Below, piece after piece: positions 7,555 through 62,180 of a DNA stretch of 64,000 bases. Every line of letters begins with the position of its first letter. Position 1 is the stretch's first letter. Below the pieces are notes generated by a model. The model saw only the letters and a program-made list of their open reading frames with translations. It did no database searches and was not told where the DNA came from. The stretch comes from Sphaerolaimus hirsutus (lineage: Eukaryota > Nematoda > Chromadorea > Monhysterida > Sphaerolaimidae): positions 5,118,635-5,182,634 of the forward strand of contig OZ038457.1 in assembly GCA_964036195.1 (NCBI GenBank). The letters are read 5' to 3'. Both the position numbers and the translations under genes were made by a program.

Positions 7555-8430
7555 TAAATATGTATGTAATATGCATGACTCCGGTCGACATTGTAAAAGC
7601 AGTGTTTCATAGGTTGACCTTCTGGCAAAGGTGTGTTTTTCGCATGGCTGCACTTCCCATTGCAACACATCATATTTGCACGTGAGGTAGGGTTTGACAT
7701 TGGCACATCACTAGTGATGTAAAACCGCAATGGCGCTAGCGCCAGAGTGGAAGCACAATAGCGCTTTTGGTGCTAGGCGCCATGCTGGCGTGGTGCTGGG
7801 TTGAGGCGTCCGAAAAGCATCATGATGCCTTCGGCGTTTGGCGCCAAGGCTTTGGAAGAGCCTGCACTATGTCGTCATAAACGGCTATGTCAAATTACTG
7901 TCAAGTCAAGTGTCAAAATTTTGAGATCAACTTTGCATTGCAAGTCTCAAGTCAAGTAACAAATTTTGGACAAAGTTCGAAATCCACGATATTGAACACT
8001 TTGAAATCGTACTTGTCACTTGGCAGACTTGGTGCCCCGCAATATCCGAATGCCCTACTTGCCAGATTATCTAAGATTGCCGAAGTCCAGATTCTAATAC
8101 AGAACTGTATCACAAAAAAACAAAAGGAAGAAGAAAATGTACCCCACTCCTAAAATTCAAAATATACATAAAAAGGCATTTTCTGGCTCTGTGCCAAATT
8201 TGACAGTACAAAAATGGTATTGCACGGGAGCACCAAGTGAAAATGTCGCATTCAATTTTACGTATCAACGAACAAAAAAGCGAATTCATTACGAAGATGG
8301 ATCGTTGAGCACTTAACTCGGGTGCAAATTTCAATCGCTGCAGAAAAAACGTGACCGCTGTAATTCGAGATGCCGTGAAATTTTGTTTGGACAAAGCCAA
8401 ATATAAAATTGCCCGATATATTCACCTACC

Positions 8431-16754: not shown

Positions 16755-17166
16755 GCGCTACGCACACTAGTTGACATTCGAATGTCAACTGGTTGATGTC
16801 AATTGACATTTTAGTTCCCGTGTCGCAGAACGTTTTCGAAATGCAAATGCCGCAACATTGAAAAATAAATATTGCGGCACGTGCATTTGAAGATCGCCAT
16901 GCGGCGCGTGATCTAAAATCTGAGTTGAAATCAACCTGGTGGCAGTCCCAAGCCCTGTAAAGTGTAAAGTAAAGTGTCAAATGTAAAGTCAAATGCAAAG
17001 TAAACTGTCAATTGTCATGCAAAGTTCAGTAAAAAAACCTTTTCTTTTTTGTTTTGATTGACACTTTACTTTGTACTTGACTTTACATTTGACACTTTAC
17101 TTAACACTTTACAGGGCTTGGGACTGCCCCCAGTTGACATTCAAATGTCAACTAGTGTGTGTGGCG
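16755..17166. mobile_element. GTTGACAT fold-back MITE carrying a nested GGCAGTCCC MITE
   Basis: Outer arms with CACACTAGTTGACATTC and mirror; the inner element at 16,941-17,128 begins GGCAGTCCCAAGCCCTG and ends with the mirror. Confidence 0.65.
16941..17128. mobile_element. GGCAGTCCC palindromic MITE, intergenic copy
   Basis: Non-coding relative of NIPBL intron 24. With its flanks it reads GGTGGCAGTCCC at one end and GGGACTGCCCCCAG at the other, the same ends that act as donor and acceptor in NIPBL. Confidence 0.75.
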
Positions 17167-17499
17167 CCATTGCACTCGTGCCTAACTGCATTTGTATAGT
17201 GTCTAGTATTTAGCACAGCTCTATACATCTACATTTTTACGCACTATATAAGGCTTGACTAAAATCGCGCTCAAGCTAGCATTTTACATTCACGCTGTCA
17301 CTTCGTTTTGAACAAAATGAATGGCTTTATAAATTAGCACGCCCAGAAGAACTTGCAGCATGCATATTCATGGAACCCGGTGCCAGTTACCACCATGCAA
17401 GCATATCGAGTCTCGCCCAATAAAGTCCTGGGGCTAGATCCAATTAGAAGGTAAGGCGCCCGACGCGTGAGTACGCGCTGAAATTGTGCGTGTGTGTAC

Positions 17500-25800: not shown

Positions 25801-28800
25801 TGTGATACCCAAAAGTAGCCAAATTGTCGGTGATGAATATGAGCTCTTCCAACGTGAACTGCTTGGAGGGCTCGTCGAAGATGCGCAGCAAGTTCTGCAG
25901 AAAGTTGCGACGGGTTTGCCGGTGGCCGCGCAGAAGGCCGTACAGCGGCTGCAGTTTGGCCGTGCAGTCGCCGGCTGAAACTTCGTCGTTTTCCTGGGGG
26001 GTGGGGGTGATGATTAGGTATTTTATGCAGTGGTGCGTTTATGACATACTGTGAATGTAACATACTTTTACGGCTGGCACGAGTTTTTCGATTTTGGATC
26101 TATTTGGATAAAAACCGGGTCACATTCAAAAGCCTTTAGCAATTCCGAAGTGCAGTGCTCTGAAATTTATCTTTTTCTCATTCATGATTGGTGTTCTCCT
26201 ATATAACCAGACGCACACTTATGTTCTACACATGTTTTTCACACTACCATTATGTTATTTTCACAACGTCGACCAGGTAACAACATTTCCATTATCCCCA
26301 AGAACCAAGAGACATTTTTTCCACCAATAACCAAAAACACACCTGTTTTCTCTGCACATAATACCCTCTAATCGGCGGTTTCTTTTCACTTTTCGCGTGC
26401 GTAGCTTCGTGCACTAAAGTAGCCAAGCGAAAAGACTGCCGCACGCCCGCCAACGCTTTGCTCTGCGAGATGGAAAGTAAATTGGGTATATAATTAGGTG
26501 TTTGCACTGATTAATAAAATGAACAAAAATGGGGCCAGTGAAGTGACAAAGTTTCAGAGTCTCAAATTTTGCGTCAAATATTTAAAACGTCGATATCATT
26601 TGAATTTTCATTGTCACTTTACAGAGCACTTGCTTATGCTAGCATTTCATTTAGCCGATAGTAGTTATATTGGGAATTAAAATCCTCGAGTGAAACATGT
26701 CAAATTATAGGGCACTTCACACAGTGCAGAAAGGAAACTTGTCAGCACTTTTCAGCCGATTTAAGTCCCTTAATCTCAACTGGACATTCTCACTCACAGC
26801 AATCATCCCAGGAAACTTAGACTCCACATCCTTCATCAGTGCATCCGTGCGATGTCTGATTCCAACATTGGGATCAGTAGACATGGCTATCAAAGTGGGA
26901 ATGCTTGTTCCCGGCGTGACCAAACCTTGCGATAGTGTGGTCGCGATCACTCTGCGAAAAATGGGTGAGAATTGGAAGGGACTTTCTAACGAAAACATTT
27001 TGCAAAAGCAGGGGTCGGTTCCCCAATTGGCACGGTACTTTAACATTTACTCTTCAAGTTACTTTTCACTTAACTCTTTACAAGGACGTACGCAGGGCCC
27101 CCCCCCCCCCCGTTCCCGGGCCGGACATAATAATTTGTCAGGAATGGAACTTTTCTAAAGTGATTTTGTAGGCATTTTAAAAAATTTTTGCGCGCAAGCG
27201 CGCAAATCCCCACGCCATTGTTTAATATGTATTTTCGGGAGTCTAAACAGCATTTCAAAAAAGCCAAACATGGTCTTAGTACTATATATAGGTCTAAATA
27301 TATACCTATATAGTATACGTTGGCGCCAGCGCCAACGCCAATATTGCCATGGCGCTGGCGCCTACAACTGGCACCAGCGACATGGCTCCATTCCTTTATT
27401 ATAGGGCCAAATTTTAGGGGGGAGCGCCGCCCCCCCCCCGTTCGCCGGGCTCCGTATACAATCCGCCCCCCGCTCAAAAATCCTGCGTACGTCCTTGACT
27501 CTTTACACCTAATTTTCGTTTAGCATTTTACTTTATGTTTACCTTACTCTTTAATCTTTACTTTGCCACTTGCGGAACTGGTCCCAGGTGACGTTTATAC
27601 ACCTTTGGGGAACTCATGAACTTTGCATTTGATAAGGAAAGCGACAAAAAATTTCTCAAACTTTTCTGACAAAAGAAACCAATGTTCAGTGACAAATAAA
27701 TGTTCTACATAAACTACAACTTTACTTCTCACTCTACCTATCACATACAATGGCACTTATCAAAAGCAACCTTTCTAGTGACCTGACAAGGTCAAAAACA
27801 AGCCCCAAAATCCCTCAAAAACCTGTGAGCAGCCTCCCGAATATTGGGCTCGTAGCAAAAGTACGCGTGCATAGTGGCGGCCCAATAAACTTGAATCACA
27901 GTCGACCCCAAGCCACCCGTAGTGTCCATTTCCTTCAAGTCGTCTTGTTCTTTGGTTTTTTGCCCTGGGTTTTTGAAAAGTTGAGTTTAACGAGGTTAAT
28001 GGAGAGATAAAGATGCAAAAAGTGGGCCATCTCGGGTTCGAACGATAAAAAATATGTTGTGTTATCGGACGGGCGGTCGATCGGACGGTTTCTCATATAA
28101 AATATTTTCGAAAAAATCAACAAAAAAAGTAGAACCCGAACATTTTTATCAAATCGAATATCTACATCGAAAATTTTGAGAACAAAATCGAAAACAGACA
28201 CTACAATGTCAGTACCGTCCGAACCCCACGCCCAATCATTTAAATAAGGTAAACGTACAATGCTCATAATTCTCCTGCGCTTTACGCTCTTCCGCATCGA
28301 GAAAATGCAGCAAATTAGCCAACGTGGTCATTTTCAGCAAAATGACGTCATTTTTCATCGGAAATTTCGACTCTTTCAAAATGCCAGTGTATAATTCCTT
28401 CATTTCGAATTCCAAAAGTTTGTCGCCGTGCGCGCAGCAAAAATGCCCGATGGCTGGCAAGGCGCGCGCTTGCACTTGCTGAAAGTTTTTTTTGGGTGTG
28501 ATTTTTTGGGGTTGAATTCAGGGTGATTTTGTCATACGATAAATAATTTTGATTCTGTTGTGACAAGTAGATAACAATGCACATCAATGATTATTAAAGA
28601 ATTCAAAAATAAGATTTATAATGAGGCCTAAATTTGGTTTCATAACATCGGAACAATCGAAGGTTCTACGGTTTTTAGATTTTTTTTGCACGAACTGGAC
28701 AACTCAAATCCGACGTTAAGTCATTCCTTGAGATGAAGCTATCATAAAAAATCCAAACTAAATTTTTTTTTAAATACCACTGGGAGAAAAATGTGTTGAA

Positions 28801-31800
28801 CTTTCCGATATTATATTTTGTACTACCGTATTTCCTCGAAATACCCCCCCTCGGGACCACTATGAAACAATCACCCCCCCCCCTCGAAATACCCCCCCAA
28901 ATTGAGTGTAAAGGGAACGTACATGACAATAACTGTAGTTTGTGTTCTGTGTACTGCAGAACACACGTTAAAACAATGTCGGTGTCACGTTAGAACAGTG
29001 TACATACCATCTACATACTAATAATAAACCCCTGCTCACCTCTCTTACAACCCTTCAAATATTTTCAAGAGAAACTTAAAAACTCGTGAATGGGGCAACT
29101 TTCATGGCTAAGTTGGGTATAGACTTGTAGGGCAAATCATGCCCTACAAGTGTATACCCAACTTAGCCATGAAAGTTGCCCCATTCACGAGTTTTTAAGT
29201 TTCTCTTGAAAATATTTGAAGGGTTGTAAGAGAGGTGAGCAGGGGTTTAGTCTACAGAACCTTATAAATGGCGGTTTTTGTTGCATTTTTCGACGTCTGC
29301 GTACGTTTCAGACGACAATTTCGTACTTGGTTTTCAAAAATTTTCTTGTGAAATAATAACCCCCCCCCCTCGTTTAACCCCCCCCCTCTCGGGACCACTA
29401 TGAAACAATCACCCCCAGGGGGGTATTTCGAGGAAATACGGTAAATAAGTTTCAATTGGGAAAAACCCCAAAAATACCTGGTCACTGTGTTGTCTGCACA
29501 GCTCGACTAGCACGCGGAAAACGTACTGGGACCACGTCCACGCCAGCCGGCCTTTATCCGTGTCATCGTCTGAAAATTGAGCGCAAAATTTTAAGAAAGA
29601 AATTTTAAGAAAAAGATTTTTTTAAATTTGACAAACCATTGTCACTTTGATCTTCATCGTCTTCATTTCGAGGTTCGGTTTTCGACTCCTCATTGGGCGC
29701 AGTTGATTCCTGGGTCACCGAGCCGCCGTCGCTGTGAATGTAAAAAGGGAGTAAACAATAACTCCAAACAAATCACTTTAATTCATCAGTGATTATGGCC
29801 CCACACACTCTAGTTGACATTGACACAAATGTCAACTGGTCCCGATCCCAATTCAATGCTTGCTGGAGAGCCAACGATCGACCTTCAAATACAAGCTTGG
29901 AATTGGGACCGGAACCAGTTGACATTTGTGTCAATGTCAACTAGCGTGTGTGGGGCCTATAGTGCTTTACACAATGATTCTCTGCACCACAGGCAATGAT
30001 AAATCTATTTGGTACACTTGTGCAAAACTGATAAATATGCGTTTTTATAATAACAGAATGAATCATTTTCGATTTCCGTCAACTCAGTAGTTTACGAATT
30101 ATTTTTTTCCGGTAAACTCAAATATCTCGCGTAGATGGATAGTGTTACCCCCCGGCAAACTTTGGATTGGGATAAGAATGGGGTGGAACGACTTTCCCTC
30201 AGAGCGACACTATTCTCAGCAGAAAGTGCTCAGTCCGCCCGTCGCGTCGCGTGCTCATCACAGGGAAATTCGAACCCAACAAATCAAATCACACACCGAA
30301 CCAAACTTCACAACAAATAAAGACCCCACACACAAAACACCAACGAAATAAAAAACCATGTCGCACAAACCTGCCATGTTGCTGGAGCCCCTGTACAGCG
30401 TGTCCGCCGGGCGGCGGCATGAAACTGTCAAAGTCAAAATATCGACACAGCAAACCCACGGAAAATATGGATCGAAGAATGGTGGGCTTTTGGGAGGGCA
30501 GTAGGGGGTTTTCCTTGCGGACAGCGTGAAAGGCACCGAGCAGCGGGTCTGCGTAATTGGTGATGGAAATTGGCAATTTTGAGCCGAAATTCGGTGAAAC
30601 CTTTTCTGAAGTTTTTGTAAATAGTTTTTTTTTTGTCTACTTGAATTGAAAACGAAAGTTGTCTAATTTTCCAAGATAAAATTTAGTCTAAATATAGCTT
30701 GGCCTTCGATCCTAAAGCGACTATTTAGTGGAGAAAATCAACTTTTTGGCAAACCGCTAGCGTTTATTGGGTCCCCACACACTGGATGTCAACTGAATTC
30801 GTGTCAACTAAATGTCAACTGAATTTAAGTGATACTGTGATTTCAACTTATCTATATGATAGAGCATAGTAAATTTTACATCATGACACTTCATTTTCAT
30901 TGTTCCTGTTAAGTGTGATGCTTTTTACAAACTTCTTGTTTTATTCAATTGACGCTGAGTTGACGCGAATTTGCGATGTCAACTAGTGTGTGTGGGCCCA
31001 TTCCCACAAGTTTTCAAAACAAGCCTATATATTTTTAGTTAAAAACAAAAATCAGCAACTCACTCATGAATCCTCTAAAAATAGCAATGACTTTCACGTG
31101 TGGTCTGTTGTGTTTCTTTATAACAGTAGCCAGGCAAGCGATCGCAGCTTTGACAACATTCGCCACCGCTGTTCTTATCAGTCTGATTAAACCTGAGAGG
31201 AGAATTTGATTGAATTTTGTCAACTGCCCTTTTTGCTGTCAATTGTCGATTTATAATTAACGCATTATAAATAAAAATACAAATTATTGAAAAAGTAGCG
31301 TCGAGTTCAAAATTCTACGCCATTCGCTATTCAAAAAACCCATCTTATACAAAACCAACCGTCCTCAATTCTCTCCAAAAACTGTTCAGAGGGGTGTTCA
31401 ACCAGCGGAATGACCTTGTCCAATATGTTTATCACTTCGACTAGCACCAACTGCTCCTCTTCCCGGCTTGCCTGGGGTGGCAAAAAAAAACAAAGTATAA
31501 AGATCTGATACAAAGAGACTTCTAGGTACCAGTGCCGCACCCTGTAAAATGTAAAAGTCATGTAAAATTTTTTTTACATGTTATTTGACATTTTACAGGA
31601 TGCGGCACGGGCGCCCGTGTGGTTGCCACGTAAACGCGCACGTATTGTATCTAATTTTACAAGACCTCCCATTAAAAAATCCTATTTTGCCAAAAAGCTG
31701 GCCACATCACAAACGCACCTTCATGCTCAAATATGGCTGCAATGTCTCCGCGTGGCTGACCAACATCTCCGGTCTGGTACGGCTAAAAACGCACAGCGCC

Positions 31801-34800: not shown

Positions 34801-37800
34801 CTCATTTATTTGTCTACTTTTTGAAAGTACGCGGTACAGAAAACATACTTTTACGTTTACACTTTTAAAAATACCAGTATTATAAGAACTCTGATTTCTG
34901 CATTCTACCATGAAATAATAAGATGTGATATTTATGCTACTGTAGTATGAAATGTCCAACCAATGTATTATACTTACACATGTATAATTAGGTACCGCAA
35001 ATTCTCGAATAAGACCCCCCTCAAGTAGTACCCTTGAGTAAATCCCCGTTGGCAAGGCGAGAAAAAAAATAACCCCCCTTGAATAACTCCCCCCGTTGGA
35101 TGACAATGATACAATACATGAATACAAAAGCATATTAGCCTACAGCAGCAACAGCAGATACATGATGTGTATGCAGTGTATACACACTTTGTTGTGGTTG
35201 GACAGTTAAATACATGAATTACATGAGTTTACAGATTATATCAATGCAATGAATTAAGTCCAAAGTTGCTGAGGAAAAAATAACCCCTCCTCGAATAACT
35301 CCCCCCTCCAAAACGGCTGAGGAAACAATAACTCCCGTGGGGTCTTATTCGAGGATTTAGAATATATTGTTTTTCTGTGTTTCAGCTGATTATTACCCGA
35401 TACCCGGTTATTTTATTACCCGGAACCGATATTTTGATCATTTGAGAACCGAAAGAACCGAACCGGAACCGAGCTTAAGAACCGAACCGAGAACCGGAAC
35501 CGAAAATTTTCAGGAACCGAGAACCGATACCCGAACCGAAATCTTTTGGAACCGAGAACCTAGAACCGGAACCGAAAATTTTGAAAATCCCAACCCTACC
35601 TCGAACCCTCACAAATAATAATGAAAGTTTGATAAAATCTAAAATTGAACGAACCCTCGAAAGCACGCTAGAATCCGCTTCAATCACTTGCGTAAGACAC
35701 TTCATAGCCTTGGTCCTCAGCCCAATGGCCGTATCGTGCAGGATCGTATTCAAAATACTCGCCAAATACTTGTCAAAACTCTGGCTGAAAACTCTCGACG
35801 CGGCCAAAAACTTGACCACGAAAGTAGCCTGATCATCAGTCAATCTAATAGTCCCGTTGGACATCTCATCCGTGCCGCCCTGGGGGCAGTCCCGGACCCT
35901 GTAAAATTCCCTGTAAAATGTAAAATGTCATGCAAAGTGTCAAAAGTCATGTAAAAATGGCAAACACGTTTGCCATTTTACCTGGCATTTTACATGAATT
36001 TTGACACTTTGCATGACATTTTACATTTTACAGGGCATTTTGCAGGGTCTGGGACTGGCACCTGGGTCATGCGGCCGTCGTCTTTGCCGCCGCGCCGCAG
36101 CAAGTCGCACAGAGTTTGTTTGGTTCTATTGGAGACTAGCCGTGCTCGCTGCTCATTGGCTGCCGTGTTTGAGGCGGTACGGTGCCCTGGGAAAGGATGA
36201 GTTGATGATTGGTTGCTTATTGGGGTGGAAGATGCGAAGAGAAAAATTAAAAGATGTGAAGCACGAAAATTTCTACTTGAAGGCTTTGAAAAATATTTTC
36301 GAGTAAGTTTTCTATGCGAAATTAAGCGTTATGTATAAACCGCCAATGTATTGACGAATAGTCAAAACGTCTCAAAAAAGTTAACAAATGTAAAAAGAAA
36401 CTTATAGGTAAACAGCACAACCCCCCACCCCTTTACAAAAACAACTGTACGGCTTTACATGTGATTGTAGCCTTAGAAATATCATAGTTGTATTTTTCAT
36501 CCAATATAATCTGACGTACCATCTTCCTGTTTTCGCATAGCCTTGTCCATCTCGTTTACGCAGTCCTTGTACCATTGCACGATATAGAACTGCCGCGCGT
36601 ACTGCAAATGTTTTCGAAATAAATTATATTTATTATGCATACTTACAAAAAAAATATGCAACACAAGAAATGCAAACTGCTGCTGGTGATCAATGACGAA
36701 TTGAGAAAGGATTCGTGTCAACGAAATAAGTTTCAATTAAATATGTGATTTCAACATTTCTATGTGATAGAGCATAGTTCATTTTATACTGTGACACTTA
36801 ATTTTCATTGTTTAAGTGTGGTGCTTGAATTTTTAAAGTGTTAAAATAAGTGTTACGATTTTTGTCCGCCGTTCCACTGGCACCTTATGCCTAGAATTAA
36901 TGTATTTCAATTTTGAAGCCACAAAAATATAAAATAACATACAAAAGTTAAACAATCGATGCCATGACGAGTTGATGAAGGTACTACACTATACGACCCC
37001 TAGTCAATATTGTTGTCAACTATAATGCAACAGTTGAGCCCCGCACGCTAGCTGATGTCAAAAAAGTGTCAACTAAATTTTCATTAATTTAATAAAGTTT
37101 TCACCCCGCGAACTCAAATGTCAACTCAACCAACCTCAACCAGCGGATCATTATCCCTCAATTCAAGTAAATAATCCACAAGTGCCCGCTGCAACATGGC
37201 CGTCTGCACGCTGGGCTTGAGCGCTTTGGTCATGTGCCGCCGCAATTCCGCGTCGTTGCAGCCGCCGCTGGTGCCGTCGCTGGATCGCTCTAAGACGTTG
37301 TCCAGGATTACTTCCAATTGCGAACTGTGCTGTTTTGAGTTGACGGCTTCGTGGCGGAGACGAGCGGCTATTGTGCCTGGAAGGGGGGAGTGAGAGGGAT
37401 ATTATTTTTAATTACGTGAAAATATGCAAATGGTGGGATATGCACTGGTGATGTAAATGAGCCATGGCGGCAAGATTTTGAGCAAAAATTATCTATTCAA
37501 TTAGTTCTAGATATGTTTTGGTTTCAGTGATTACCGTGTTTCTTCGAATAAAAACAACGGCATACCCCAAATAGAACGGCACCTCTAATAGAACGGAAGG
37601 TTTTGAAATTTGGTACTTTTTTTCTCTCACGAAAAAAACAGAGCGGCAGCCTCCAATAGAACGGCACCTCCAATAGAAGGGCAGGTAGAAATTACGCTGG
37701 AAGGGTGCCCAAACACAAAAATATTTGAAAAATGGGTGTGAGAACATCTAAGCTATGATTTAGCGTTTTGATGAGCACAGATGCTTTACTATACTCGTCA

Positions 37801-40800: not shown

Positions 40801-43800
40801 GGCCAAACGACGTGAATGTTCAATGTCTTGCACAATTGAATGCATCTTTCAACTGTGTCCTCGATGAATACCTCTCTGAAAATGTGATAATATTGTAATT
40901 TTGTTCAGACGTTTGTGTGAATTATAAAATTTGAGTGCGAGTAGATAAGTACAATGTACTTATTTTTAATACGATAAAAACATATCGAAAGAACATCTTG
41001 AAAATGGTATCGATCGAATGGGCAGAATGTTTGCAGCCGCCCCGTGTGCGTATACCAGAGCTTTGAAGCATACACTTCATAAATCATAAATAGACTGTCA
41101 CTTTTTCTGACACCCAACCACTAAACTCCGCCCACAACCCGTGTTCTCAACTGAAAACAACTCAATAAACCAATCACCCCCCCCCCCCAAGACCCGAACC
41201 TAGGCATGTTGGCGCTGGTCATGACATTCAGGGCGGTCAGGGCGGCGTCGCAGGCGCGCACTATCCGCTCGTCGATCAAATCTCGATAAGTTTCGTCCAT
41301 ATCGTCCTCGTCTCTCTGTTTTTGAGGGGGGGGGGGTAAAGTTGCGAAATTTGGAACTTTATGTAAATGCTTGTCGGCGCGGGTATTAATTGAACTTGAG
41401 CTGGGAAACGTTTGAGGGGACAGTAGATTAAAAATGTGTATATAAATTTAGCTGATTGATATCGAGAGAAGATCACGAACTGGTGTCAATTTAGCGAGTG
41501 GACAAGCAATCAATAAGCGATGAGTATTTTCATTTACCAAATTTACTTGTCACTCACAACTTAGACCAGATGGCAGTCCCAAGCACTGTAAAGTGTAAAG
41601 TAAAGTGTCAAATGTCATGAAAAATTTCAATCAAAACAAAAGAAGAAGAAAATTTATCACTGAACTTTGCATGACGATTGACACTTTACTTTACATTTTA
41701 CATGACATTTGACACTTGACTTTATACTTTACAGGGCTTGAGACTGCCCCTAGTTGTCACTTTTTACGTTACTTATCCCGCACTTTTCACATTACTCTCC
41801 ACTTGCGGAATTGGCACCAGTTAAACGGTCAATAGTTTTGAAAATGGGTAGGGCCAATTATGGATAATGCGACGATATTTAAAAAAAGGTATATGTGAAA
41901 AAACACAAAAACGAAATATTACCTCATCAAAGAATGTGAACAGGCCTTCTTGCTGTATGCAATCTCTGACATTCTTCTCTAAGATTGTCAGCAATTTTGT
42001 CAGCTTTTCCACTGGCACCTTATACGTAGCATTCATGTATTTCAATTTTGAAGCCTGAAAAATATATTGAAAGCTAAATCGACGATGAGAGATTAGATTA
42101 GATTCATCGAACATAAAAAGTAAGAGATTTGAAAAAGTTGAACCAACTTGTCTGCACAGTTCCGACAGGGTGGCTTTAGAGATCAGGCACTCTTGAGGTA
42201 TCATATCTTCGTCGTCTGAAAAAGAGAATTTGAAAAATTGACAATGTAACAGGTAAATATTTTACTTTCCCGTTAGTGTACAAAAGGTTTGCATTCCGTG
42301 GTTTCATTTTCAGTAAAATACTATGATTTACATTAAAAAGCCGTCTAAAAATGTTGTTTTTAAAACGCAGGCATCAAAATAACCATTCGATATTTTATGG
42401 CATGAATCACAACCTACGATGCAATTACAGGTTGAAAACCGTTCTCCAGCCATATTTTAAATGGCCGATTTTGTCAGCCATCAGATATAAATAAAAAAGG
42501 AACTAGAAAAACGGACCGCCGGCAGCGATGTCGATGTCCTCGACATTTTCGAAAATTGCGTCGATGTTGCCGCAGAAATCGCGCAGCGCCTCGTCCACGA
42601 CCATTTCTGTAAATTTACAGTGCACGTTTTTTTCATTTAGATTTTTTATTATATGACTCGAGCTGCCTGAATAAGCTTAGCAAAAACATTCGGGTGAAGA
42701 AACGCAAAATTTCGGTGCGCTTAGCGTCACTGAGACTCACTGAAAATATTTATATTTACGTATCGGACAATTTCAGATATCGAGAATTTTTTCAAACGAA
42801 AATTTTGAAAAATATCGATATCGATAAATAAATGAAATCTTTGTAACACGGCCGGATTGGTATCACACATTAGTGGACACTCTACATCAACTGTCAACGC
42901 AGAACAAGGTGTGCAAAAATACTGCGACATGCGCATTATTAAATCGTTCAGCGACCAGTCAACTAAAATCTGCATTGACATCGAAACGTAACCGGTTGAC
43001 TTGTTGTCAAATAGTGTCAACCAATTGTCAACTAATGTCAACCAATTGTCAACTAGTGTCAACCAGTGTCAACCAGTTGTCAACCAGTGTCAACCAGTTG
43101 TCAACTAGTGTGCAGCGCCAATAAAAACCCACCATCTGCATCCACAAACTGGTCGTCCATGCGGCGGCGCTTTAGTTTCTGATTTCGTCTCTCCCAAATT
43201 TCTTCCCATTCGCGATCGCGCTTTTTTATCAACTCGTCCGGAGTGAGCGCCCGTTCGATCGGCTCCACAATTACGGCCAGATTGCTGTCGTCAACCTGAG
43301 ATTTTTAGTTGACATTTGAGTTGACAGGAAAAATTTGGGCGTGATTTGGGCGACTAACTATGGCGGATCGTTTTAGAATCATTCTCGAATATAGGAAAGT
43401 TCGAAAATTCAGGGGGAAATATAGTGTAGACACCAACGAATTGATCTGTGGCTTCCGGTCTGATCAGATAAAGAAAATCGGCATCAAAAATATTGAAAAA
43501 ATATTGACACATAAAACTCCTAGGCTATGAACCCTCGTTACAGTAAAGTTAAATACTGTTACAGTTTACAACCCCACTTAATACAAAAGCGCAAGCCGCT
43601 AAGAAATGATGTTTGTATGATTTATAAACAATTATAACAGCACGGTCATTCATTATCCATTGCGCGCTACATCTGCACTTTCGGTGATAGCGGAATGAAA
43701 AGGTATAGATTTTAAGACATCTGGAAAAGTGACATGTCAATATTTCTCAGAGAAATTGATACCACCATAATATTGAGCTTATTCCCTATGTAGCTGATTC

Positions 43801-51225: not shown

Positions 51226-51938
51226 CTGCGAAATAGAAAAAATCCCGTGTATTGTAATTACAATAACTGCAAAAAGGGTGCAGCTAACGAACCTATCAGA
51301 CCTTCTGAAGTTAAAATTGGTGCATCACATCTCCAAAATAGAAATTTTTATCTCAATTAACCGCCGCAGAGCCGCTATCCGCCAAATTACTCCAAATTCG
51401 TGACAAGAGCGCCAGTTTTATTTTTATCCCATCGATTTTTAAGCTACTCGCCCGTCGTAGTCATAATTTGGGGAAACACAAAATATTGGCATTGCTAGCG
51501 ACATATTACAGCGAATATCTCTTGATTCAAGCGAACTTTTTCACGGCTGTATGATAGAAAAACTGATTGAATGCATTGAACATTTATTTTGTTGAGAAAT
51601 TTCACACAACTTCACTAATCTACCATAATACTTTTCAACTTAAAGACGGTCTTTTGCCTGCGAGAACAAGTGTCTATTCAGGCTTTCGCGGAAGAAGCCT
51701 TTGGCATTGTGCCAACCCTGTATCTCAAGGTGTAATAACAACGAAATATCCAATTGTGACTCTTTCTGAGTACAGACACAGGTGCAAACTGTCTAAATTT
51801 TCTGTAAGCCAGTGTAAAGTTACAGAATGTCACATGATCAGTGCCTGAAGCACTTCAAGCCTGATTTTCATTCAGTCATGTCTTAAACGAACAAAAAGGA
51901 CTTGAAAATAAATACTCTAGAACACCCTGATACTCAAA
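51226..51938. promoter_or_regulatory. Divergent intergenic region between NIPBL and the F-box/LRR gene
   Basis: About 0.7 kb separates the two start regions and must hold the 5' UTRs and promoters of both genes. No TATA box or CpG-rich core stands out and no MITE was recognised here, unlike the rest of the non-coding DNA. A bidirectional promoter is an inference from layout only. Confidence 0.45.
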
Positions 51939-52226
51939 ATGAACCAAAAAATGGACACATCTGAACACTCAGTGGAGGCAGCATACCATGTATCAGAATT
52001 TGATGACCCCTTGTCAATGGAAGATTTGACAGATGATTGTTTGGTGCACATTCTTCTAAATTTGCCACTTCATGAACGCCTGAGACTGGAATGTATATCT
52101 AGAAAATGGTATATACTCATGCCATATTTTGATATAAAGTTTTTTTCTTTGGATCAATTAAAGTGGAGAACCAGACACATTTATGAGATGGAATACAGCA
52201 AAAATAATTTGACACATTGCCAGAAG
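51939..52226 (+). CDS. F-box/LRR gene exon 1 (F-box)
   Basis: 96 codons from the first ATG. Contains the F-box helix pattern LTDDCLVHILLNLPLHERLR followed by CISRKWY. Ends CAG AAG before donor gtgggttt, phase 0. Confidence 0.9.
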
Positions 52227-55200
52227 GTGGGTTTTCCTTTAAATTATTTTACTTGAATGAATTTATAATTTTTTGAATTTGCTGGTTTCACTGTAAGAAG
52301 TTTTTGTAAACATAACCTCTGAGCACATTGAGTTTTTTATTCTCTGAACAAGGTATCCAAAAGTGAAGGAAAAGTCATTTAAATGAGCATTATAAGATGA
52401 TTTTGGTCACATTTGATTGTAATTTGCAACCCTTCATAACTTGTCACTTTCATTTTTATTTGAAACTTTTCCATTAACCTGACAAAATATGAAATTGGTT
52501 CTCATACACATTGCAGGTAATGAGGCCAAAATGGTTCCATCGATACATGGAAACACTTTTGTGCCGGTTTGGGCAATCACTAAAGATGTTAAAATTATCC
52601 TCAGATGTTTTTCGTCCAATTGTCACTGAAGAACTGATGGAAATAATTTCAGAATGGGCACCAAATTTGAAGCATTTATCTATTGGCAACTCCATAATTC
52701 ACATTGAGGTATTTGTTTGATCTTTGTGTTGTTATTCTAGTTGATTTTCTTGTTGATTTGTTGAAGTGTTTTATAGCAAGTACACTGAATTTCAATAAAC
52801 TTTAATTTAAAAAAATTCACTTAATAATAAATTCTACTAATTTTTATGAATTAATTAACAATTTGAAAAAAATTCATTCCGATAATTTTAGGCATTGCAG
52901 TCACTGAAGGGGTTATCGAAACTGTCAGTGTTAAATGCTCAAAATGTCATCTATCTGGAGTCTGAAAGTAACCAACCACCAGCTGATTATGGAGAACTTT
53001 CAAACCAAATTGAAGATATGTTGGCACATTTTTCCCAGCAAATGATTGCAGTGAATTTTGCTCAATCTCCTGGTAAGATTTGGATTCATGTCAAATGTCA
53101 AATGTAGAAATGTTCTGAAAAACTTAAAATACATCAAATATCGATAAGCCATATCATTGTAGCCTTATTCACCAATTGTAGATTACAACAAGTATTCATT
53201 TATTTATGTAAATAATATGTAGGTATGTAAATATATATTGCTACACTCCAACATAAAATACATATAATACAATCAAACATTGCAGCCAACTTCCACATGG
53301 AAATGCCACAGTTGCAAAAGGCATTCTTAGACTTCACACAAATCGATGACATTGGGCTTGAAGCTCTTTGCAATGGCTGTCCAAATTTGGACACAGTTAG
53401 CCTGAGTAATTGCAGAACTTTGACGCGATTTTTACCATTGGCGAGGCTGCAGATGAAAAGTCTTTTGTTGAATGGTACTAAGGTTGGTGTGGATATCATT
53501 TGCGTCTGTATGTTATATCTGTACATGTATGTTTATTGTTCCATTTTTATTTAGATGTTTTTTTGCATTACAGGTGAATGCGATGGAGTTACAAAATATT
53601 TTATCAGTGCAAACAGGCCTAACATGTTTGCGCATTGACAACTGTCAGAATATCAACAATTTTGCTTGCTTAAGGTCATTGAAACATTTGGATAGTCTCT
53701 GGGTTGGGCCATCACTCGGATTTGGTTGGTTTTAATTGTGTGACTAAGGAGATCATTTTATATTTCAAAAGTTTTTAGTGAAAGATATGAAAAGTTATGT
53801 CTCATTTTTTGTTGTCATTTTTTGTAATCTTTATTTATTTTATATTTGATGTAGTTTCAAACCTTTCAGTGTCTATCTCAGATATTGGAAAAGCACATGC
53901 CACTCCATATTTTGTATGATTTTATCATTCCAATCCCACTCACTAAATATTATCTCAACCTCAAAGGTGATGCCGATCTCGCACGTGTGAGCAAACATGG
54001 CAAGCTTCAGAATGTTGTTGTTTCTGGGTGCCAAGTCACTGATGCAGGACTCAGATATTTGGCCACTCACAGTGCATGTTTGAAGGAACTTAGTGTATGC
54101 CATACTACTGTGACTGATGAAGGTTGGGAATGGACTGGGAGCTAATTTTGGAAGTGGAGAAGTGACAAGAAAAGTGGTAATATAGTAAGCAATAGTTTAA
54201 AACGATAAGTAAAGTGACAAGTGTTTTTAAAATATAGCTTTCCTTCTCGCTAGTAGTTTACTTGTCACTTACCACGTACCCTCTTACTTGCTACTTGTCC
54301 ATTAGTGGAATCAGGACCTGGATTGTTTGGCAAATACATACAGGGGTGGGCATCTTCAGTTACCGCTGGAAAAACGCGATAGCTTGAGCTACGGTTGAGC
54401 TATCACAGTGAAATTTTAACACAATAGAGTAGACTCCATAGGACACCTATTCTGAAGTTTGCAACCCAAACGGCCACATTTTGGGTGAGTAGTGGAACAC
54501 ACCGTTTTTAGTGTAATTTTGTGACTAGGCGTCACCCATAGGATAAATCGAGGGTGGCATTTGAGGGGGGGGGGTCACCGGTCTTTGGTGTTGTCCCATT
54601 CTGTCGTACATTGGCCGATTTGGATGCCCTTTGAGTATGTTGGGGTTTGGGGTCGGGGCTACAACCAAATTCTTTGTTTTTCTCGAATAGTCCCCCAGTC
54701 CTGAGATAACGGGGGTCAAGTCACAAAATTACACTAAAAACTGTGTGTTCCACAACTCACCCAAAATGTGGCCGTTTGGGTTGCAAACTTCAGAATAGGT
54801 GTCCTATGGAGTCTACTCTATTGTGCTAAAATTTCACTGCGATAGCTCAACCGTAGCTCAAGCTATCGCGTTTTTCCAGCGGTAACTGAAAATGCCCATC
54901 CCTGTAATATACCATTGAGTTTGGTTTTTTGAACACCCAGGAATTAAGTGCATCCTTAATGAATGTCATGAACTTTGCTTACTGAACATGCAAGCTACAA
55001 ACATCACCAGTGCTACCATTCACAACTTTGGTGCAAGAAGTGCCCCAAAGTCTCTGAGATGTGTCTATGTGCAGAACTGTGCTGAGGTAAATATCTCAAT
55101 GCTTCATTTCAATACTTGCATGTAAAATCAGACCATCTTAGTTATATTTACGACTCAGAAATTCATTTTATACAGGTAGATGAGTCTGGCTTCACTGCTC

Positions 55201-56103: not shown

Positions 56104-58713
56104 TTAGCCTGGATTCCACTGGGTGCTGGAGCTAAGCCTTGCCTTGTGCTTGCGGCGCATGCAGGGCTCGCCCCGAGGGTTGGTCACCAGTTGACCATCG
56201 GATTTTCCAGGGTTCACCAACATGAACTCGGCATGTGGTGAAATGCGTTTGGCAGAATTGAGAAAACATTTGGTTGCAGACTTTTTGCGTGGGGGCCTGC
56301 CATAGACCTTGCTGCCCTTGGCGCGTGGCAGTATAGTGGGCTTTGACGAGTGCGATTTTCGAATGCCAGTAATTGGTGCCAATTCACGATGTGACAGTTT
56401 AGTGACCACCGATTGTGTTAGCATTTCCCCCTTAGTCAGAGACCGGCAGGCGCAAATCGATTCACCCATGGCCCTGGGCGTGAAATTGGCTTCGAGTTGC
56501 TGGAGCTCAGAAATAGCTGTGCGATTCATTTTTAGAGTGCCATAGAGTGCCTCATGGCCAAACAATAGTGGGCTTGATGTGCGCGGGAAGTGCGGTTTTC
56601 GTTTAACCACAGCCCAGATGTCTGCCGATTGCTGTTGTCCACCGGGTGTGGTATGCAGCAAATGCATTTTGTAGAGCGCCAGGTGATGCCCCGGAATAGG
56701 CTTGCCAGCAGTCCCCAAGCTTGAATCAGGGTATGACCGGTACTTTGCCTTCTCCATGCTGGCATTGCACTGTGCGCGTTTCCAAACATCCTTGAGCAGG
56801 TGCTCCTCGATGATGATCCCCTCCTCACAGCCACTATCGAGTGTGCCTGTGAGTGTGCAGCCCATGAAGTCCACCTTGGCCAGTGGGCGATCACAGTGGG
56901 TGTGTCGCACACTTGACTGGTTCATGGCGCAACCCATCTGCTTGTGAGCTGCGTAGCCGCTAGGGAACCACGTTTCAAAATCATCAGGCTTGGAATCGGA
57001 TGGCGGATTAGAAACATTTTTGGTCAATTTAGTAGACGGATTACCACTAGGTTCAGTGTCAGATTCAGGGGCACTATAGATGTGCTCATCTACTTTCAGA
57101 TTGAGTTTGCCACACTCAATGCGCATATTTTTCTGAGCATCGTGCTCAGTCTTGCCGGCCTTACGCAGGAAGTCTCGGGCCCGTTCCGCCCGATCCAGTC
57201 GATAGGCAGGAGAATCAGGATTCAAATAGCATTTTGCCGGCTCATGCGGCATGGGTGCACGATGCATGAAATAGGTGCACCATGGACCCTGATGCGTCAT
57301 TGGGTCAAATTTTGACTGCCTATCCCAGCCATCATTTTGATTGCCAGATTGACCCGAGGCATTTCTGGATGCAGCCACAGCTGGTGGGTCATTGGACCAT
57401 GCAGCATTTCCACCGTTCGACGGATTCAGTGCACGATTAGCATTACGCTGCTCATTTTGTTCAGCCCGATAATGCAGATTTTCCTCGCGCGTGATGTCGA
57501 GGCGTCCAACGGCATCAGCCAATTCGATTTGACCATCTTGCCATTTCTCGCGCCACGGATACCAAAGAGACATTGGCAACATTCCTCCAATCTCGAGGAA
57601 CAATTTATCACCAATCATTTTCTCACGTTGTGAGTCGTCAATCTGCTCACTAATATAGTGGAATGTGCTGCACAATCTGCTGTACAGGGTGGCCACAGAA
57701 TCAGTAGGTTTAGCAGAAATTCGGTACCACTCAGCGACTGAATGCACCTTGCGGTCAACTCGAAAAACACGTGCCAACTTGTCAAGAACATATAGCACAG
57801 TGTTGCGCTTGTCCAGGCGAATAGAAATGTAGTGTGCCTGCGCACTTCCCTTCAAACATTGCTGGAAAACATTGGTCCAGAACAAATGTTGATATGGAAG
57901 GGGAACATTCAGAGCCTGTAGCGCCACGTTGTGAAGCCAAAATTTAAATGGCCCCGATGGCGCGCTCGAATCCCCATTGAATGGTGTCTGCTTGCTAGCG
58001 ACAGTGGCTACATGGACACCACTCATGCGATCACTGGATGAAATTTGTGCCAGCGCATCCACGAGCGACGGAAAACCATCGGCCGGTGCCATGACGTATT
58101 TGTCAACGTAGGCAGCAATTTGGCCGATCAGGCCACCTGGGGCAGACGAAATTGCCTGCAACCGGCTTTCAGTTGAATCCACCGGCAGGTTGGTGGATGA
58201 CATTGACGGGGTGCTCGATGAAGTTCGATTTGGCACGCCCAATGCAGGACCCAAGTTTGGGCTCACACTTGGATTAGGTGGCACAATGGGTGCCAGTGTC
58301 GCTTGCACAGCCGATAGTTGAGCAACTTGTGCCCCAAGCTGCTGGATGGCTGCCAAAAGATCAGCCATGACTGGCGCAGCGGGCGCCACCGCAGCTGGCA
58401 GGTTGGCGACAACCCCGGGAGGTGGCAAAATGCCCCTATTATCACCCGCAGCGGGTACCTCGTCGTCGGGGTCCAGCGCCAATTCCAGCGAATCATCCGG
58501 TTCAGTGAAATATAGGTCCATACAGCGCCATACTTGGCGGACCAACGCCACATTGCTCAAACGCGGCGGATCACTGATCGTGGGCCATTTGTCGTTGTCG
58601 TCATTGCGATATTGCAGAAGTGTGGTCAGCAATTGCATTAGCTTTTGCCGCTGGCCACGATCAATCCACGCTTCGACGATTGGCTCCAACTCGGGGCGCG
58701 TGTATTGCAACAT
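56104..58713 (-). CDS. Retrotransposon Gag-protease-like polyprotein
   Basis: 869 codons from ATG 58,713 to TAA. Residues about 1-230: Ala/Pro/Ser-rich with no recognised fold. About 240-430: helical Gag-capsid-like block (for example FKFWLHNVALQAL and VATLYSRLCSTFHYI) like that of LTR-element Gag proteins. About 480-505: a Cys-His-His-Cys cluster, possibly a variant zinc knuckle. About 620-740: aspartic-protease-like segment with LDSGCEEG in place of the usual DT/SGA and a distal LLFGHEAL like the retropepsin LxGxxxL. The basic C terminus has no polymerase. The reading frame is uninterrupted. Whether the protease is active is unknown, since the residue after DSG is Cys. A shadow frame on the other strand is not coding. 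Confidence 0.85.
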   Translation of the reverse strand: MLQYTRPELEPIVEAWIDRGQRQKLMQLLTTLLQYRNDDNDKWPTISDPPRLSNVALVRQVWRCMDLYFTEPDDSLELALDPDDEVPAAGDNRGILPPPGVVANLPAAVAPAAPVMADLLAAIQQLGAQVAQLSAVQATLAPIVPPNPSVSPNLGPALGVPNRTSSSTPSMSSTNLPVDSTESRLQAISSAPGGLIGQIAAYVDKYVMAPADGFPSLVDALAQISSSDRMSGVHVATVASKQTPFNGDSSAPSGPFKFWLHNVALQALNVPLPYQHLFWTNVFQQCLKGSAQAHYISIRLDKRNTVLYVLDKLARVFRVDRKVHSVAEWYRISAKPTDSVATLYSRLCSTFHYISEQIDDSQREKMIGDKLFLEIGGMLPMSLWYPWREKWQDGQIELADAVGRLDITREENLHYRAEQNEQRNANRALNPSNGGNAAWSNDPPAVAASRNASGQSGNQNDGWDRQSKFDPMTHQGPWCTYFMHRAPMPHEPAKCYLNPDSPAYRLDRAERARDFLRKAGKTEHDAQKNMRIECGKLNLKVDEHIYSAPESDTEPSGNPSTKLTKNVSNPPSDSKPDDFETWFPSGYAAHKQMGCAMNQSSVRHTHCDRPLAKVDFMGCTLTGTLDSGCEEGIIIEEHLLKDVWKRAQCNASMEKAKYRSYPDSSLGTAGKPIPGHHLALYKMHLLHTTPGGQQQSADIWAVVKRKPHFPRTSSPLLFGHEALYGTLKMNRTAISELQQLEANFTPRAMGESICACRSLTKGEMLTQSVVTKLSHRELAPITGIRKSHSSKPTILPRAKGSKVYGRPPRKKSATKCFLNSAKRISPHAEFMLVNPGKSDGQLVTNPRGEPCMRRKHKARLSSSTQWNPG

Positions 58714-59131
58714 TTTCCCGATTGCAAAGCCACTAGATCAGCACACACAAAATTTGCAAGAAATGGTGCTGGAGTGGCTGAATGCAGCAGAATGGCACCA
58801 GGACAATGTAGCGCCAATTCCCTCTAACTGTGCCTGCACAATTTCAGTGCAAAAATTGGCACAGGAGGGACTCAGTGCAGATAGGCACTGAGTAGATGGT
58901 GCGGTGGCGGTAGGCCAATGTCACACCAATTGCACTTGGCAAAATATTTCCCAAGTGCAAAAACGTGTCGCGGCAGATGCGGCACGCCAAATACGCTGCA
59001 GCGATTGGCCACTGCAGCGCCAAAAGTACTGCACGCACAGCGTCAGCTTCACCAGTGCAAAACGACGCGGTAATGGCCGCGTGCAGCTGGGCGAGAGCGC
59101 CCCTTTGCTTGGCACGGATCACAATTCAAAT

Positions 59132-61119: not shown

Positions 61120-62180
61120 TACCGTATTCCCTCGAATTACCACCCCCTTGAATTAACACCACCCCCTCGAAATACCCCCATGTGTTTTCGGGCTGAGGAA
61201 AAAATACCCCCCCCCCTCGAAATATGTCTGGAATGATGTACATCATATATGCACTGTACATGATGTATTTATTGACGCCAATTTTCATCGCAGATGCACA
61301 TACACGCTAACATGTATACAGATGTACGTCTATATACCCGATATGTCCGAATATATCCTACATTCTCGCGTTTATTACCGGCTTTGGGTATGAAAACGCG
61401 TACTCTTTACTATCATATTCATGAAAATTTCTGCCGAAATAATAACCCCCCCCTCGAATAAGCCCCCCTCTCGAAATATCCTCCCCCCTCAAAATTTCCA
61501 CTCTGAAAAACTAAACCTCCTGGGGCCAGATTTAATACTCCCTACAGATTTGTAGGGTAGGGCGTACGCCCGATAGATTTTTCAAAGTTCAGCCGCATCG
61601 ACGCACATGCACCGAGAGCAAGGCGGTTCATAAAATACACGAAACTATCCCTTAAGGTCGCCGATATTGCAATATGACGGTTATCGCTTCGATTTTGGCT
61701 CGGAAATCATGATTTCGTCATTTCGTGGCCGTCTGCCAATTCGTTTTTTATTTTATATTGTCGGGCAGGTTACTCGCATAAGTCGCGCATTTGTACGCTC
61801 GTGCATGCATTTCTTTCTTGTCGCTGCCCTCATGGTTTCGGTTGCAGACAGTGAACACTAAAAAAGTGACCTCCTGACTACACAAAAGCGTGACCTATGC
61901 GAGTAACCCGCCCGACAAAATAAAATAAAAAACTAATTGGCAGACGGCCAAGAAATGACGAAATCATGATTTCCGGGCCAAAATCGAAGTGATATACGTC
62001 ATATTGCAATATCGGCAACCTTAAGGGATGGTTTCGTATATTTTACGAACCGCCTTGCTCTCGGTGCATGTGCGTCGATGCGGCTAAACTTTAAAAAATC
62101 TGTCGGGCGTATGCCCTACCCTACAAATCTGTAGGGAGTATTAAATCTGGCCCCTGGGGGTATTTCTAGGAAATACGGTA
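61120..62180. mobile_element. Fold-back MITE, CCGTATTTCCTCG family, interrupted
   Basis: TA-CCGTATTCCCTCGAATTA start and GGAAATACGG-TA end; the interior matches the 10,634 copy (ATGATGTAC motifs). Interrupted by a long palindrome at 61,522-62,154. Confidence 0.85.
61522..62154. mobile_element. Long palindromic MITE nested in another element
   Basis: 633 bp with two arms of about 250 bp, ends GGGGCCAGATTTAATACTCC and mirror. The central loop of about 110 bp is unique. Confidence 0.88.

Follow-up and report, generated by a model that had tools for sequence, protein, structure and literature searches.

A predicted intron composed of a fold-back MITE in the NIPBL gene of the nematode Sphaerolaimus hirsutus

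Introduction

The birth of introns by transposon insertion is already known elsewhere, and DNA-transposon introners were reportedly described by Huff in 2016. The larvacean Fritillaria is also said to carry MITE-derived introns and would thus be a case of transposon-attributed introns in an animal, as is the locus studied here, although its intron borders are reportedly mostly non-canonical. According to the excerpted text of a survey of introners (Gozashti 2022, PMC9860276), terminal inverted repeats (TIRs) and target duplications of DNA-transposon introners lend one or both of the splice sites and mRNA length stays mostly unchanged, with two animal groups in all given as carriers and copepods named among them. 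In Amoebophrya, as the excerpts of Farhat 2021 (PMC7789003) describe them, introners are hairpin introns with direct repeats over the exon borders, and in Eurytemora affinis introns with GA/GG donors were gained in a burst (Robertson 2017, PMC5714493).

Here we analyzed a predicted intron in a stretch of 64,000 nucleotides from the nematode Sphaerolaimus hirsutus (assembly GCA_964036195.1, contig OZ038457.1, positions 5,118,635 to 5,182,634 of the forward strand), below called the window. By analogy, the case appears to resemble a DNA-transposon introner, being a non-autonomous element with TIRs in which the splice sites would come partly from the target duplication and mRNA length would be kept, whereas the families covered in the excerpts of PMC9860276 have from 5 to over 2,000 intron copies per genome with splicing examined, as compared to one predicted intron here. 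With the introner elements of Amoebophrya it shares intron-folding inverted repeats and direct repeats at the borders, but those elements, in the part of PMC7789003 that covers them, have inverted repeats of 8–20 nt and mostly non-canonical introns, in contrast to the 79-nt arms and GT-AG borders found here. Eurytemora affinis (PMC5714493) likewise shows AG before donors and has many lineage-specific introns in an animal, with about 10–12% GA/GG donors, whereas the donor here is GT (the gene model permitted GT only).

Results

The gene surrounding the element was identified as NIPBL/Nipped-B through Pfam matches to Nipped-B_C (4.6e-17) and Cohesin_HEAT (1.8e-12), and the spliced protein matched human NIPBL at 1.8e-103 (chain, central piece). 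The original prediction had placed the intron in a conserved NIPBL coding region, which was correct with regard to NIPBL, but the insertion spot itself is a poorly aligned loop. Exons were assigned using a splice-and-codon gene model over positions 50,700–22,500, in which only GT donors were allowed. The unsupervised model gave 47 exons; from 36062 it spliced to 35910 by way of a 14-nt exon lying within the MITE, leaving the acceptor of the original prediction unused. Five exons (1, 25, 27, 30 and 33) were removed by hand to give 42 exons and 41 introns, and the exon start after the MITE was shifted by hand from 35910 to 35879 ahead of all intron and exon counts. The borders of introns 1, 27, 28, 30, 36, 39 and 41 in this model are uncertain, and its open frame across 2375 codons was imposed as a modelling condition and is no evidence in itself. 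When a NIPBL peptide was used for searches, a viral contig collection gave seven pattern matches and no relatives by tblastn, and a genome contig collection gave 54 pattern matches and no relatives, a single-sequence query of this kind reaching close relatives only.

Some other features of the gene and its surroundings were also seen. The NIPBL donors on the minus strand are mainly GT[T/G]NGT, with A at +4 being uncommon, and one NIPBL intron holds a tandem array of TGTCAACCAG-like units (43005–43111). The beginning of an adjacent gene, with an F-box domain (1.2e-6), lies at 51921–52256 on the plus strand, and an open frame of 877 aa at 56104–58737 on the minus strand, having no Pfam family at 0.001, contains by eye the retropepsin-site-like LDSGCEEGII.

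Between two NIPBL/Nipped-B coding segments, a single inverted repeat spans all of the 182 bp. The features of this region are as follows (a slash in sequences marks a junction).

36062–36186, minus strand: upstream NIPBL exon (...DDGRMTQ), exon 23 of the reduced model
35880–36061, minus strand: predicted 182-bp phase-0 intron, GTGCCAGTCCC...GGGACTGCCCCCAG, wholly MITE plus border repeat
35885–36060, minus strand: MITE body, TGCCAGTCCC...GGGACTGCC, if CCCAGG is the target duplication; alternative end assignments exist
36061–36066, minus strand: left border repeat CCCAGG, the final G being intron base 1
35879–35884, minus strand: right border repeat CCCAGG, of which CCCAG closes the intron and the last G opens the next exon
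35988–36066, minus strand: inverted repeat, left arm
35878–35956, minus strand: inverted repeat, right arm
35911–35912, minus strand: alternative acceptor TTTTACAG/G in the MITE, as chosen by the unsupervised gene model
35902, minus strand: putative branch-point A (TTTTAC), 22 nt 5' of the exon
35899–35900, minus strand: second alternative acceptor TTTTACAG/G in the MITE
35655–35879, minus strand: downstream NIPBL exon (GGTDEMSNG...), exon 24 of the reduced model

The two arms, 79 nt each, are identical at 72/79 positions (91%), with three of the seven mismatches found within the first nine bases. The RNA fold of the 182-bp element reached −120.4 kcal/mol against a shuffle mean of −51.2 (z −15.7), and none of 200 shuffles was equally stable. 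On the minus strand the coding sequence reads ...GGC CGC ATG ACC CAG, followed by GTGCCAGTCCC...GGGACTGCCCCCAG and then GGC GGC ACG GAT GAG. Removal at CAG/GTG...CAG/GGC gives a clean frame with the join ATG ACC CAG/GGC GGC, retention of the 182 nt gives a frameshift (182 mod 3 = 2) together with stops, and removal without the CAG (ACC/GGC) is also in frame. The sequence thereby bore out the earlier claim of CCCAGG at both borders (36066–36061 and 35884–35879) with an in-frame join, ACC CAG/GGC GGC. The further claim, that a single fold-back MITE makes up the 182-bp intron over its full length, agreed with regards to anatomy, coordinates and borders, but its status as an intron is a prediction.

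As in introners, the intron sequence is also a repeated element: the window holds two more copies of full length, as well as weaker partial matches that were found using a profile built from the six arms of the three full copies.

16941–17128, minus strand: copy 1 of the MITE family, lying within a larger palindromic element
41572–41748, minus strand: copy 3 of the MITE family, within NIPBL intron 14 of the model (41922–41316)
38755–38700: weaker relative (E 9.8e-9)
50050–49924: weaker relative (E about 1e-4)
31614–31525: weaker relative (E 4e-4 and 3e-3)
27085–27024: weaker relative (E 3e-3)
7898–7972: weaker relative (E 9e-3)

The matches at 27085–27024 and 7898–7972 may be due to chance. 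Modelled introns contain copy 3 together with the first four weaker matches, all of them away from the splice sites. With lengths of 182, 188 and 177 bp, arms at 86–91%, TIRs, no coding capacity and several copies, the family has the features of a MITE. Both of the related MITEs named in the original prediction (16,941–17,128 and 41,572–41,748) are real; the first was said to have the same ends as the intron copy, but its left end, GGGCAGTCCC, differs from TGCCAGTCCC of the intron copy at two bases. The end motif CAGTCCCRRRCCCTG occurred seven times in the window at up to two mismatches, with 0.31 expected and none of 100 shuffles reaching seven, and the bare 9-mer GGCAGTCCC at up to one mismatch was not enriched (11 occurrences, 5.8 expected, 6/100 shuffles reaching 11). 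Pattern searches gave no matches for the MITE end patterns or the host repeat in the viral contig collection, nor for the host repeat in the genome contig collection, and Rfam gave no matches in the window at gathering scores.

The palindromic host element in which copy 1 is nested covers 16755–17167 and has the ends GCGC..CACACTAGTTGACATT, and its CACACTAGTTGACAT motif is seen again at 29795–29957 and 31002. The relative at 31525–31614 on the minus strand, located in intron 28, is shorter and has the ends GTGCCGCAYCCTGTAAAATG, with both of its flanks (GGGCGCCC and GGTACC) being palindromes. Large palindromes are furthermore found at 61515–62161 (arms of 280 nt, 93%), 54339–54906 (188 nt, 97%) and 29025–29249 (110 nt, 99%).

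The direct repeat across the borders of the target intron, being 6 nt, is the longest among the 41 modelled introns, with the other 40 having 4 nt or less. The CCCAGG repeat is weaker evidence for a target duplication than it appears, for two reasons: donor and acceptor sites have CAG/G in common in their consensus, and CCWGG at the ends of TIRs, which is almost palindromic, mimics a direct repeat. In the three full copies, each of the six ends has C seven bases ahead of CAGTCCC, and WGG comes next in most. In the host element of copy 1 the intact sister arm reads AACTGG/TTGAT, and the CTGG before the copy 1 MITE is therefore host sequence. The joined flanks of copy 1 have 7 extra bases, read as ACCAGG + G, which supports a duplication of approximately six bases with two mismatches (AACTGG and ACCAGG, 4/6 alike). 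For copy 3 the border bases ACTAGG and ATCTGG agree at 3/6 and the duplication is indistinct; its length would be about 6 bp in copy 1 and in the intron copy. In terms of the reading frame, ACCCAGGGCGGC is favoured as the empty site. Ends of hAT type (CAGTCCC with an 8-bp duplication) were rejected by eye, the 8-mers being mismatched, and an element with CTGG at both ends and no duplication was disfavoured, as the host arm of copy 1 retains CTGG.

Splice sites were scored using a profile trained on the 40 other introns of the same model, upon which all scores thus depend. The donor CAG/GTGCCA scored 2.6 bits, third lowest of 41 (two of the 40 others being lower), and the acceptor GACTGCCCCCAG/G scored −5.5 bits, which is the lowest of 41, the next being 1.9. 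As originally noted the donor lacks G at +5, but it is 36 of the 40 other donors that have this G, instead of 36 of 42. The T in TGCCAGTCCC of the intron copy completes the GT donor. The 5' splice site is found within the −120 kcal/mol stem, with pairing of 0.99 and 0.95, and a stem of this strength may hinder splicing. The A of TTTTAC (35906–35901) is bulged from the predicted stem, with a pairing probability of 0.0, and could be the branch point; the nearer AG is disfavoured as acceptor because it is only three bases past TTTTAC, which is too close.

For the predicted pair 36061/35879 the element borders would be the splice sites, but other in-frame borders exist, one of them being that taken by the unsupervised model. 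Within the MITE, the in-frame pairs 36017/35910 (2.3) and 35993/35910 (1.6) outscore 36061/35879 (−2.9). Donor 36017 or 35993 together with the acceptor TTTTACAG at 35911 would give a partly exonised MITE, adding MITE-coded residues to the variable loop, where conservation is poor and homology permits extra residues. Such pairs are in frame and score higher on the gene's own splice profile, and exon start 35910 was picked by the unsupervised model, but the profile was trained on 40 introns of that same model, the donors AAT/GTCATG and CAT/GTAAAA score −4.0 and −4.6 bits, under all 41 modelled donors, and the exact border match and the 6-nt repeat would become coincidence. We consider partial exonisation rather improbable. 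The weak splice sites and the single haplotype in view would also be compatible with an insertion that is retained and breaks this allele, being recent or polymorphic. That explanation we regard as very unlikely: the 7/79 differences between the arms suggest age, unless inherited from the source copy, and NIPBL is expected to be essential.

We also compared the intron with those of human NIPBL, which has 47 exons and hence 46 introns in about 8.4 kb, with exon 28 being 99 bp (excerpts of PMC4100155) and exon 27 being 103 bp and ending at c.5328 (excerpts of PMC4100155 and PMC7900548). These lengths place human introns at c.5225/5226 and, through the 99 bp of exon 28, at c.5427/5428. On this numbering the MITE intron aligns to c.5211/5212, and the nearest human intron, c.5225/5226, is 14 nt off and of phase 2, versus phase 0 for the MITE intron; human was the one relative with which absence of the intron was compared. 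The next two introns coincide exactly with c.5427/5428 and c.5574/5575, which checks the numbering, and the intron at c.5328/5329 of the same numbering has no counterpart here by alignment. Introns are also found near the human borders c.3855/3856, c.4320/4321 and c.6108/6109, as given in PMC4100155, with placement by eye and inexact.

These positions bear on whether the MITE took over an old intron, the homologue of human intron 26, after landing in or next to it, with the old sequence lost and the splice sites having slid into the element ends. The human intron at c.5225/5226 is 14 nt off in a gapped loop, where the stretch from NR to DDA counts 32 residues in human against 41 in this gene, and the offset could lie within reach of misalignment, though the phases differ. 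A random position would have about a 16% chance of falling within 14 nt of one of the 46 human introns (our own arithmetic), old introns have been retained in the gene, as seen with the next two that match human exactly, and MITE relatives are present in other NIPBL introns. The exon without the MITE would furthermore be 350 nt, whereas none of the other 40 exceeds 264 nt, which fits with an older intron nearby. Conversely, the phase is 0 here and 2 in human, the 14 nt that separate the two positions are plain coding sequence here, and losses occur too, as human c.5328/5329 is missing.

A further point against a takeover is that no flank of the MITE has the composition usual for intron ends. 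The NIPBL introns (50144–22863, minus strand) start G+T-rich and C-poor (+7 to +46: G 0.31, C 0.08) and end A+C-rich and G-poor (−43 to −4: C 0.33, G 0.07), giving a skew score above 0 in 36 of the 39 introns of at least 100 nt (introns 13 and 32 were excluded as too short). The score was −3 for the target, −4 for intron 24 and 0 for intron 11, with mid-intron controls at 0.4 (sd 5.4, 400 draws). As the target resembles these controls, no remnant of an ordinary intron seems to flank the MITE, but the signature is also absent from intron 24, making its absence in the target non-unique. Taken together, we find a takeover of an old intron unlikely. Paired ends specific to each intron were also considered, and this idea failed, with own ends performing as shuffled partners (405/2000 permutations as good). 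No report on such intron-end composition was found among literature titles and abstract openings.

Discussion

The best fit to these results is that a coding exon took up a MITE, which is now spliced out at 36061/35879 as an intron, because the element matches the intron from border to border, the frame is restored, the border repeat is the longest in the gene and the ordinary end composition is absent. We consider this explanation probable, while inferring the insertion event, the duplication and the use of borders 36061/35879 in RNA. It coincides with the original reading of a MITE-made intron, but the broader statement that the family can create introns concerns one predicted case. Against it are the weakest acceptor and a weak donor, the better-scoring internal pairs, the 350-nt exon and the human intron 14 nt away, as well as the signature-free intron 24, the stem over the 5' splice site and the copy 3 repeat of 3/6.

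According to this mechanism, a fold-back, non-autonomous DNA transposon would have entered an uninterrupted NIPBL coding exon at ACCCAGG/GCGGC, with about six bases of the target (CCCAGG) being duplicated. Of the two CCCAGG copies, the left would supply CAG/G, with the T that begins the element completing GT at the donor, and the right would supply the acceptor, CCCAG/G, whereupon splicing would recover the original frame. The hairpin would draw both ends of the intron together.

A more general, and doubtful, proposal is that the MITE family prefers NNCWGG targets, so that CAGG in the sense orientation would provide a proto-splice site (CAG/G) on both sides, with some ends adding the T of GT, and that in-frame introns would hence have arisen repeatedly in this animal. 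The suggestion derives from AACTGG, CCCAGG and ACTAGG found at three of three full copies and from that T being present in three of six element ends.

Few animal groups are reported to carry introners. An intron of young appearance, in which the element, its relatives and the target repeat are all still readable, would let the route from insertion to intron be tested. The case would also allow one to test how a gene tolerates a strong hairpin along with a weak acceptor, and whether a preference for CAGG targets predisposes a transposon to the making of introns.
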